64,000 nt of DNA from Ophiocordyceps camponoti-saundersi (nom. inval.) (Eukaryota > Ascomycota > Sordariomycetes > Hypocreales > Ophiocordycipitaceae): NCBI GenBank assembly GCA_003339415.1, contig PDHQ01000095.1, positions 56,299 through 120,298 on the forward strand, in the 5' to 3' direction. Position 1 is the first letter of the stretch. Each line of letters opens with the position of its first letter. This document shows positions 3,536-16,131 of this stretch, one piece after another. The translations under genes and the position numbers were made by a program. The notes beneath the pieces are model-generated. The model was not told the origin of the DNA. It saw only the letters and a list, made by a program, of their open reading frames with translations, and did no database searches.

Positions 3536-6198
3536 GACCTAGCGGAGATGAACGACCTCCGTCGTCGTCGGTCGTTCATTCCGCTCAACCAAACCTTTCT
3601 TCTTTTGTCTTTAGGCTTTTCACTATCTAATTTGTTCGGCGAGATCTTTTCTTTCTTTTTTTTTGTCCTTCGCAATTTTCTGGTGAATGTATGTGACGAC
3701 GACATCAGGGGCGATGACGAACCATGCAGCTATCTGATATAGGGGGAACGGGAAACCGCAAAGGGATAGAGAAACGTTGCTCATCTCCACACGGCGCATG
3801 TCAGCTACCAGACTCGACTGGACGTATGTATGTACGGACGGTATGTATGAATGTACTGTATGTATGTATGTATGTATACCAGGACTTTTTACTATCACGT
3901 AGCGACGGGCCCTTGAAGGTCGGGGAAGGCGTACGACCCACCGTCGATGAAGATGCAACATGACATTGCTTGAGTTCCGGGCAGCGAAGACGGACGGCCC
4001 CTCTTTCAAGTCCCAGCGCCTCCCCACCCCCTTTCTCCTCCCAACTCTTTTTCTTAGTAGATGGGTAGGTAGGCAGGGAGGCGAGTTGTATGTATGTATG
4101 TATGTAAGTATGTCTGTAGGTTGGTATTTACGGACATACATAGGTAGGTAGGTAGGTAGACAGATAGGTGGCAGGTAGGTAGGAATGTAAGAAGTGAGGT
4201 AGGCTTCTAAACAAAGTGAGAAGTGAGTTTCCTAGGTTAGTCTCTTCAACTTTTAGTTCCCGTGTGCCCGTAACTCGACTTGGCTAGTGACAGCCATGTG
4301 TCGAGTCTGCAATTACGTATGTAGTTGGAAGAACAAAGAGATTGTCTCATCTCTCTAGAGAAGAAAATATGTATATACATATGTATGTATGTATGCTTGT
4401 AAAAGAGACGAGTAATAAAGTTTCTTCTCGACGTAACATGGGCTAAAGCTTCGAAGGGGGGGGGGGGGGGGGGGGCCGCCCACACCGGCGCCCCCAAGCC
4501 CTCCTCCCCACTCCACACCCACCCTCTATCCCCCAAACCCTCCCTCTAATCCTCTGTCNNNNNNNNNNNNNNNNNNNNNNNNNNNNNNNNNNNNNNNNNN
4601 NNNNNNNNNNNNNNNNNNNNNNNNNNNNNNNNNNNNNNNNNNNNNNNNNNNNNNNNNNNNNNNNNNNNNNNNNNNNNNNNNNNNNNNNNNNNNNNNNNNN
4701 NNNNNNNNNNNNNNNNNNNNNNNNNNNNNNNNNNNNNNNNNNNNNNNNNNNNNNNNNNNNNNNNNNNNNNNNNNNNNNNNNNNNNNNNNNNNNNNNNNNN
4801 NNNNNNNNNNNNNNNNNNNNNNNNNNNNNNNNNNNNNNNNNNNNNNNNNNNNNNNNNNNNNNNNNNNNNNNNNNNNNNNNNNNNNNNNNNNNNNNNNNNN
4901 NNNNNNNNNNNNNNNNNNNNNNNNNNNNNNNNNNNNNNNNNNNNNNNNNNNNNNNNNNNNNNNNNNNNNNNNNNNNNNNNNNNNNNNNNNNNNNNNNNNN
5001 NNNNNNNNNNNNNNNNNNNNNNNNNNNNNNNNNNNNNNNNNNNNNNNNNNNNNNNNNNNNNNNNNNNNNNNNNNNNNNNNNNNNNNNNNNNNNNNNNNNN
5101 NNNNNNNNNNNNNNNNNNNNNNNNNNNNNNNNNNNNNNNNNNNNNNNNNNNNNNNNNNNNNNNNNNNNNNNNNNNNNNNNNNNNNNNNNNNNNNNNNNNN
5201 NNNNNNNNNNNNNNNNNNNNNNNNNNNNNNNNNNNNNNNNNNNNNNNNNNNNNNNNNNNNNNNNNNNNNNNNNNNNNNNNNNNNNNNNNNNNNNNNNNNN
5301 NNNNNNNNNNNNNNNNNNNNNNNNNNNNNNNNNNNNNNNNNNNNNNNNNNNNNNNNNNNNNNNNNNNNNNNNNNNNNNNNNNNNNNNNNNNNNNNNNNNN
5401 NNNNNNNNNNNNNNNNNNNNNNNNNNNNNNNNNNNNNNNNNNNNNNNNNNNNNNNNNNNNNNNNNNNNNNNNNNNNNNNNNNNNNNNNNNNNNNNNNNNN
5501 NNNNNNNNNNNNNNNNNNNNNNNNNNNNNNNNNNNNNNNNNAAAAAAAAAAAAAAAAAAAAAAAAACCCCCCCCCCTCCTTTTTTTTTTTTTTTTTTTTT
5601 TCCCCCCCCCCCCTGCCCCTTCCCCCCCCCCCCCCCCCCCTTTTTGGCTTTGTATTCCGTCCTTCGCGGAATCAGTCGTCACATTGAACTACGTTTATAT
5701 GTACAATATCGGAGCTCTCCGTTGATAGGGGAAAAAAAAAGGAATTTAGGCCGGAAAAAAAAAACTAAGAGAGAGAGAGAAGAGGAGAAAAGAAGAGAGA
5801 GAGAACTTTTGGATCGGCCATGGGTGACGTTGGACAATGTTGAGGGGGTTATGTGAATGTGGTGGTTGGGGCGAAATCGGGTGTCACCTTGAGCAAGTAA
5901 GATACCTAGGCAAGTGGTGACTTCTCTCGTCCGAGGTTGGAGGGTTGAAATCGCATGCCTTAGGTGGCTGGCAAACCCCTCTCTGAGACAGCCCTCGATT
6001 CATCATTGCGTCTCAACCTGCTGCAGAGTTTTTATCTTGACTTCCTTGTCCAAGAAGCACGCTGACCTTGGAAACAGTCCAAGAGCCAACCGTACATAGA
6101 GCATCCCTCTCCGTCTACATTTGCACATACATACATACATACATACAGATATGCTATCGTACACACATACAGACATACATGCTTCCGTATCAACGTCA
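3536..6198. other. Intergenic region containing the sequence gap
   Basis: No gene seen. The left part has TATG and GGTA microsatellites (3825-3880, 4085-4200) and ends in a 20-G run (4456-4475). The middle is N. The right part starts with A, C and T homopolymers (5542-5640) and continues with GA-rich DNA. A gene hidden in the gap cannot be excluded. Confidence 0.6.
4559..5541. other. Assembly gap (983 N)
   Basis: A continuous run of N. The left flank is G- and C-rich. The right flank is a chain of homopolymers: 25 A, 10 C, about 20 T and C blocks up to 5640. This suggests the gap edges are low-quality read ends. Confidence 0.99.
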
Positions 6199-15002: not shown

Positions 15003-16131
15003 ATGAGCAGCCCACGCCGCCGTATCGAGACTGATGTGAGTGGCCTGATTGATGGCTACCTGGTAGTTTTCCTTTGCTAACCTGTTCGGCCCTTGGTCAT
15101 CTAGGTCATGAAGTACGTCACAGCTTCTACTAGCCCTTGTTCTCCTGACCTCGCCGGAGATCGCAGTTCACTAATAACGCGGCAGGATGTTCGTTGGGCG
15201 TCCTGAGCGAGAGCCACACCGTCGCAGCTGACCGAAGCAGGCTCATGAGCGATTACGAGGTGACGCTCGTGAATGACAATAGTGAGTCACCAACCCCTTT
15301 TCACCCACTTCGTTGGACCAACTTTGACTCACGACCCCCTTTCTGTCCAGTGTGAGCCTCTTCACCACCTCCTGTCGCCGAAATACCCGTCTCACCCTTG
15401 GCTCTCCCAGGCAAGAGTTCTTCGTGCGCTTCAAGGGCCCAGCCGAGAGTCAGTGCATCACAAGGGCGAAACGGCCCCACTCCCCGGCGGTGCACGCTGA
15501 CATGAGAGTTTCCGCGCGTAGCACCCTTCGAAGGTGGCATATGGAAGGTCCACGTTGAGCTTCCGGATTCGTACCCGTACAAGAGTCCAAGCATTGGATT
15601 TGTTAACCGCATCTTCCATCCCAATATCGATGAGCTGTGAGTCGAAGAGGCTTTCTCGTCTTCTCCTTCATCCCCCAAGGCCGGCTGAGACGGTCGCTGA
15701 GAACTGGTCAGGTCCGGCTCTGTCTGCCTTGATGTCATCAACCAGACTTGGTCGCCGATGTATGATATGATCAACATCTTCGAGTCGTTTTTGCCGCAGC
15801 TCCTCCGATATCCGAACCCGACAGACCCCCTCAACGGCGAGGCCGCGGCGCTTCTGATTAGAGAGCCCAAAAGCTACGAGGCCAAGGTCAAAGGTGAGTG
15901 TGCGCCCTTTCGATTCCTCTGGGAGTGGTTTTTCCGAACCGGACGAGGCGAGACGCGATGCGGCGGGGCCATGAGCTGAGGCTGGAAGCAGAGTACGTTC
16001 AAAAGTATGCTACCAAGGACGCGGCAGACGACGCCGGCGCCGAGAGCGAGGAAGACGACGACATGTCTTCGGTTGCGAGCTTCAGCGACGCCGAAGACGA
16101 AGAGCCGGCTGGGCAGATGGACGAGTTATGA
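15003..16131 (+). CDS. ubc8: Ubiquitin-conjugating enzyme E2, Ubc8/UBE2H class, nine exons with two microexons
   Basis: Predicted 186-aa E2; in yeast Ubc8 works with the GID/CTLH ligase that degrades gluconeogenic enzymes. The only assembly I found that keeps the family sequence is: 15003-15035, 15105-15112, 15186-15188 (GAT), 15241-15281, 15351 (single T), 15411-15448, 15522-15636, 15712-15893, 15992-16131. All eight introns (52-98 nt) are GT-AG. The sum is 561 nt, exactly 187 codons. The product reads [56 protein letters not shown], then [20 protein letters not shown], whose Cys in SVCLDV is the catalytic thioester residue. An acidic Ser/Asp/Glu tail (residues about 155-186) is typical of this class. 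Without the 1-nt exon the frame breaks between NDN and QEF; without the 3-nt exon one Met is lost. Confidence 0.9.

Follow-up and report, generated by a model that had tools for sequence, protein, structure and literature searches.

One-base exons have been found in only a handful of genes in the literature searched. CYP621A of Fusarium, a seldom-expressed P450 gene, is described as containing a one-nucleotide exon, G (AGGGT), with 18 SRA reads; the case was spotted by manual annotation, the two short introns together span 139 nt in F. graminearum, and the authors claim the first fungal gene of this kind (PMC12940212). Yeasts of the Candida parapsilosis group (CTG clade) have snoRNA host transcripts in which introns one base apart are reported to be removed stepwise, RNA-seq having given the order in one cluster; these RNAs are non-coding, so that the base matters neither for a reading frame nor for a residue (PMC5033589). 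In the plant gene APC11 of Arabidopsis, the one-base exon is an A within a 422-nt intron stretch, was tested by mutation in protoplasts, and is explained by the authors through intron definition and stepwise removal (PMC4674806). The 1-nt microexon of plant VPS55 has alternative forms in some lineages and is supported by RNA-seq and RT-PCR (PMC8831610). One-base exons between two introns are also described in mitochondrial genes, cox1 of Trichoplax (PMC5436844) and rnl of Ophiostoma, the latter a Sordariomycete in which the exon lies between two group II introns and is not spliceosomal (PMC12308204).

The ubc8 gene of Ophiocordyceps camponoti-saundersi (order Hypocreales) very probably has a constitutive one-nucleotide exon, T15351, which forms the ATG of VNDN-M-QEFF between exons 4 and 6. 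It resembles CYP621A in being a fungal nuclear protein gene with a one-base exon and two short introns, in the restoration of a conserved motif and in its wrong gene models; it differs in being a single-copy E2 gene, in its exon base (T), in its apparent conservation far past one genus and in an adjoining 3-nt exon. The Candida hosts are likewise fungal, nuclear and spliceosomal with introns one base apart, and APC11 is likewise a ubiquitin-pathway gene whose frame requires the one-base exon. As described for VPS55, the exon is absent from reference annotations and conserved over a large evolutionary distance, the conservation being apparent in the case of ubc8. An earlier note on this DNA was right that one-base exons are known from few genes, but it regarded a fungal case as notable in itself, and 'first fungal one-base exon' is not claimable because Fusarium CYP621A and the Candida snoRNA hosts precede it (PMC12940212; PMC5033589). 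The gene, the breadth and the adjoining 3-nt exon appear to be unreported in the literature searched, and literature searches joining ubc8/UBE2H with microexon terms found no paper naming ubc8 among the matches listed. What is apparently new is a one-base exon in a single-copy housekeeping protein gene, with seeming conservation across an order and perhaps across most Pezizomycotina.

The window (the whole 64,000-nt stretch analysed) contains the following features of ubc8.
15003..15035, + strand: exon 1, 33 nt, codes for 11 residues (splice model and homology)
15036..15104, + strand: intron 1, 69 nt, GTGAGT...CTAG, branch motif GCTAAC
15105..15112, + strand: exon 2, 8 nt, GTCATGAA
15113..15185, + strand: intron 2, 73 nt, GTACGT...GGCAG, branch motif ACTAAT
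15186..15188, + strand: exon 3, 3 nt, GAT, the extra residue of DVMK-M-LMSDY
15189..15240, + strand: intron 3, 52 nt, GTTCGT...AGCAG, branch motif GCTGAC
15241..15281, + strand: exon 4, 41 nt, 3' end ...AAT GAC AAT A
15282..15350, + strand: intron 4, 69 nt, GTGAGT...GTCCAG, branch motif ACTCAC 18 nt before the end
15351..15351, + strand: exon 5, T, putative one-base exon, middle base of ATG (Met29 of the 186-aa protein)
15352..15410, + strand: intron 5, 59 nt, GTGAGC...TCCCAG, branch motif TCTCAC 15 nt before the end
15411..15448, + strand: exon 6, 38 nt, G CAA GAG TTC...
15449..15521, + strand: intron 6, 73 nt
15522..15636, + strand: exon 7, 115 nt
15637..15711, + strand: intron 7, 75 nt
15712..15893, + strand: exon 8, 182 nt, contains the Cys of SGSVCLDV
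15894..15991, + strand: intron 8, 98 nt
15992..16131, + strand: exon 9, 140 nt, terminal stop TGA
15282..15415, + strand: alternative 134-nt intron, GTGAGT...GCAAG, reproducing the deposited protein (NDN-K-FF, without M-Q-E), judged wrong

Exons 1-6 thus measure 33, 8, 3, 41, 1 and 38 nt in succession. The encoded protein has a UBC domain (PF00179, 135.4 bits for the T-exon model) and its best PDB matches are UBE2H (8pjn) and the yeast E2-24 kDa protein Ubc8 (8pmq), which places it in the Ubc8/UBE2H group of E2 enzymes. The 45.7-Mb assembly holds a single high-identity ubc8 match (89-98% over three exons), all others being at most 51% identical; judged at high identity, ubc8 is a single-copy gene in this species.

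At the junction the sequence reads ...GACAATA/GTGAGT...GTCCAG/T/GTGAGC...TCCCAG/GCAAGAG (slashes mark splice boundaries), and introns 4 and 5 split the ATG codon of VNDN-M-QEFF. The canonical introns that the earlier note placed at 15282-15350 and 15352-15410, around T at 15351, have the sequence and coordinates it gave, and its joining of A, T and G into ATG, yielding NDN-M-QEFF, is borne out by the joined exons. Each side of CAG/T/GTGAGC is a complete intron with a donor, a branch-like motif (CTCAC in both, ending 18 nt short of the 3' end of intron 4 and 15 nt short of that of intron 5) and an acceptor. With T15351 the joined exons form one open frame, whereas its omission destroys the frame, as the note had also said, and leads to stops; the base is required for the frame and for the conserved Met. 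The further claim that no other donor/acceptor pair restores the frame proved wrong: if single introns are at least 40 nt long and paired ones at least 45 nt, the frame stays open across the junction in 18 GT-AG solutions with one intron and in 18 with two, the T exon being among the latter. NDNMQEFF is obtained from the T-exon solution only among all enumerated combinations, and the 18 single-intron and 17 other two-intron readings all fail to restore VNDNMQEFF. We infer that T15351 is included in the mRNA of this species and used constitutively, the expected junction being AATATGCAAG; the junctions AATAAGTTC, AATAGCAAG, AATA/GCAAG and AATA/AGTTC would be contrary to this reading. A zero-nucleotide recursive splice site, in which AG stands directly before GT, typically within a very long intron (PMC13149111), differs from this arrangement, which is AG/T/GT within a total stretch of 129 nt.

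To assess chance, the 129-nt stretch was put through 20,000 dinucleotide shuffles, with the ends fixed and both halves at least 45 nt long. YAG/T/GTRNGY arises in two of the 20,000 shuffles, and in one of 20,000 if each half must also contain a CTNAY branch motif; the corresponding counts are 6/20,000 and 3/20,000 for any exon base, and 249/20,000 and 52/20,000 for T with any GT donor. The bare motif YAGNGTRAGY occurs four times in the window, where 2.83 occurrences would be expected; alone it means little, and its position and the protein give it meaning.

Relatives were collected by two full-length protein searches (best 120 of 6,247 and best 120 of 5,995 matches), which gave 138 different proteins, each a 90% cluster representative: 96 with NCBI records (mixed source included) and 42 from jgi/lgn/ena/merc only. 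Among the NCBI entries, we take 39 to be Hypocreales from their species names; the remaining 57 include the plant-labelled P0001 and P0138, in both of which the exon-4 segment is present, and Saitoella, which lies outside Pezizomycotina. The jgi/lgn/ena/merc ORFs probably derive from RNA, given their short contigs and uninterrupted frames. Among the matches listed, Met at the T-exon junction is found in 0/39 Hypocreales models, 13/57 other NCBI models and 42/42 of these transcript-like ORFs, comparative data that back the earlier note's proposal of a one-nucleotide exon in ubc8 as the best reading. Pseudocercospora P0056, which reads NDNSMQEF, stands outside the 13 of 57; part of these 13 perhaps have the correct Met through loss of one intron. 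A third search (residues 1-50) enlarges the non-NCBI set to 61 among the matches listed, in which Met is present in 60 by a strict pattern and the 61st also reads NDNM (P0128 reads NDNMSEFYVRL, and P0108 likewise NDNMSEF). Yeast Ubc8, with which the earlier note had compared the residue, aligns at the Met position without a gap. VNDNMQEF also occurs outside Pezizomycotina, in S. pombe, Mortierella, Rhizophagus and others, and the Met is therefore ancestral; its conservation across fungi is directly visible in these proteins.

The same models serve as their own control. Among the matches listed, the three downstream intron positions are intact in 36, 37 and 38 of the 39 Hypocreales and in 53, 53 and 54 of the 57 others, and the exon 1/2 junction, which adjoins the GAT exon, in 30/39 and 47/57; these positions are assumed to hold introns in the relatives, which are known here from proteins alone. 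Because the downstream positions are mostly intact and the T and GAT sites are not, gene prediction fails mainly at both tiny exons. A genome-contig search for the relatives' DNA returned three distant prokaryotic loci (L002-L004), and viral contigs returned none.

The wrong models can be decoded on the assumption of A/GT...AG/T/GT...AG/GCAAGAG, a structure deduced from protein and not from DNA, in which the first and second introns correspond to introns 4 and 5. Among the matches listed, a K-F class (acceptor five bases on) comprises 4/39 Hypocreales and 7/57 others, including O. camponoti-saundersi and O. polyrhachis-furcata; an S-x-QE class (donor four bases on, GTNN/GT) 6/39 and 8/57; and a class ending in R-QE (3' end of the second intron retained, AG/G) 15/39 and 12/57. 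In the S...V-QE class, the first intron is retained, G/T/G, and the second removed exactly (P0023, P0122; P0066, P0068; Cordyceps militaris, Zarea, Apiospora and Tricladium); P0019 and P0033 likewise end in V-QE. In the NDN-MY/MF class, the first intron is exactly out and T is followed by a translated GTA/GTT donor (P0006, P0024, P0067, P0113; P0085, P0093), NDN-MY in three Fusarium, Beauveria and Diplocarpon being A/T/GTAY. Several wrong models would thus decode to AG/T/GT, and the last two classes, if decoded rightly, would fix the exon base as T in eight genera (Cordyceps, Zarea, Beauveria, Fusarium, Apiospora, Tricladium, Diplocarpon and Coniosporium). P0063 (NDN-MH) falls outside the MY/MF class, P0031, P0101 and P0107 lack exon 4 wholly, and nine entries (P0004, P0011, P0034, P0040, P0073, P0089, P0106, P0114, P0132) have no or a doubtful class. 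Four models read NDN-R-QEF, of the right length with R for M (P0059, P0082, P0121, P0135; Monilinia, Dothistroma, Baudoinia and Ascochyta); here a cDNA aligner may have forced one transcript base onto the intron G, giving AGG. Neurospora tetraspora P0049 carries an NDN-KAM-QEFY insertion outside all predicted error classes, and ubc8 may be differently structured in the Neurospora lineage.

A direct comparison of model and transcript-like ORF is offered by Ilyonectria. In a tree of the post-junction part (113 rows: the window, 28 of the 39 Hypocreales, 28 other NCBI and 56 of the 61 non-NCBI entries), which comes from a short search and whose forks are in many cases weak, P0047 and the Ilyonectria destructans model P0026 are identical. 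The two agree at 169/169 aligned positions outside the junction, and differ at the junction itself, which reads NDN-TPFLPTDTSSTSNRSSR-QEFF in P0026 versus NDN-M-QEFF in P0047. It is strongly indicated that a single nucleotide would be included in the mRNA of a Nectriaceae relative and that AG/T/GT would be common to other Hypocreales; related fungi seem to share the one-base exon.

The neighbouring exon 3 shows a similar problem. A model without GAT is one residue short after DVMK relative to yeast Ubc8 and most transcript-like ORFs (DVMK-M-LMSDY). Within 15113-15240 (128 nt), a single AG/NNN/GT lies 20 nt or more from either end, CAG/GAT/GTTCGT. It yields a 73-nt intron with branch motif ACTAAT and a 52-nt intron with branch motif GCTGAC, and it supplies the missing codon. 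Shuffles produce the GAT exon in 6/20,000 cases (2/20,000 with branch motifs) and any 3-nt exon in 805/20,000 (51/20,000 with branch motifs). Among the matches listed, the residue is intact in 2/39 Hypocreales models (P0053, P0122), 29/57 other NCBI models and 40/42 transcript-like ORFs (37/42 by a narrower pattern); both misses among the latter, P0047 and P0130, fall outside the pattern since they begin at MKM, a start that would fit an RNA retaining only intron 1. The GAT exon at 15186-15188 is missing in the deposited model, and its residue is absent in 37 of the 39 Hypocreales models among the matches listed. The earlier note's numbering (exon 4, exon 6) may count this exon, which was itself undescribed there.

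Introns 4 and 5 are sized like the rest of the gene's introns (52-98 nt) and have the same kind of signals, although the CTNAY branch motif is absent in ubc8 introns 7 and 8. Given the size and signals of the flanking introns, each short and with its own donor, branch-like motif and acceptor, each would be recognisable by intron definition, which would suffice, the exon requiring no signal of its own. The two introns are probably removed sequentially, in either order, because two spliceosomes would hardly fit splice sites one base apart. Removal of intron 4 first would rebuild the second donor as ATAT/GTGAGC, and removal of intron 5 first would turn the acceptor into CAG/TGCAAG, so that both orders would leave a proper substrate for the second splicing step. 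The authors of the APC11 study likewise argue for stepwise removal (PMC4674806), which is also described around single-base exons in the Candida snoRNA transcripts (PMC5033589). Two-step splicing, which the earlier note set against a one-base exon, is therefore no true rival: the mRNA is identical under either name, and stepwise removal is probably the actual route. Splicing of the GAT exon is proposed to follow the same route as that of T15351.

Four other explanations can be weighed against constitutive inclusion of T15351. Inclusion might be partial or regulated, with some transcripts skipping T, or using a donor four bases on (GTGA/GT, NDN-SE-QEFF) or an acceptor five bases on; frame-preserving alternatives do exist, but skipping T alone leads to an early stop, and such forms occur in 0/42 transcript-like ORFs among the matches listed, although assembled ORFs would hide minor forms. 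We consider this unlikely, and it is compatible with the T-exon reading save for the word 'constitutive'.

A single 134-nt intron, 15282-15415, with its acceptor GCAAG within exon 6, would give NDN-K-FF as deposited and predicts the mRNA AATAAGTTC, so that ATGCAAGAG would contradict it. It preserves the frame, has a strong donor and, together with an intron at 15040-15185, reproduces the deposited protein (P0005, CP533_3117) letter for letter; K-F is also the reading of the 4/39 Hypocreales and 7/57 other NCBI models among the matches listed. However, two residues are lost at a site whose length is constant from yeast to the transcript-like ORFs, the K-F reading occurs in 0/42 of these ORFs among the matches listed, the Pfam score falls to 128.0 from 135.4 bits, and an AAG acceptor is used beyond a better CAG. 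Translated intron sequence is also present in the N-terminal part of the deposited model, between exons 1 and 4. This intron is very improbable.

A sequencing error is less probable still. An assembly or base-call error, with one base missing or extra and one ordinary intron as the true structure, would produce a like frame problem, and one assembly of the species was compared; it is rejected because relatives show the same problem, separately sequenced relatives failing at the same codon (Met in 0/39 Hypocreales models among the matches listed) and O. polyrhachis-furcata, a separate genome, repeating both errors of the O. camponoti-saundersi model. The second donor, acceptor and branch-like motif also stand exactly where they are needed. 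A spliceosomal twin intron (stwintron), as described in filamentous ascomycetes, where two closely linked U2 introns are likewise excised consecutively at one place but one splice signal of the external intron is interrupted by the internal intron, with no exon base between (PMC5639578, PMC12403724), can be dismissed, since the split donor at A/GTGAGT is not rebuildable (the base before 15282 is A, with no internal GT at 15283/15284), the [D1,2] form, with the internal intron between bases 1 and 2 of the external donor, is not found at 15278-15290 or 15346-15358, and the acceptor-split reading gives the disfavoured NDN-K-FF product.

It is somewhat probable that the T exon and the 3-nt exon together are an ancient feature of ubc8 in most Pezizomycotina (at least Sordariomycetes, Leotiomycetes and Dothideomycetes), with two introns one base apart in a single ATG codon, retained since the ancestor of the group and hidden because such exons defeat placement by annotation programs. 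If so, no other protein-coding one-base exon known in fungi would be as widespread, and intron definition alone would maintain exons of minimum size over long times; deep conservation in such a housekeeping gene would mean that an exon can do without any internal information if its introns are short and self-sufficient. As a small gene in laboratory moulds, ubc8 is a tractable system for the order of intron removal and its limits. That 0/39 Hypocreales models are correct among the matches listed points to a gene class beyond the reach of current annotation, and frame conflicts at conserved motifs are a possible route to further such exons.

Elsewhere, the window contains an assembly gap at 4559-5541 (983 N, with long homopolymers nearby), and C runs of 70 bases at 1459-1528 and 34 bases at 1570-1603.
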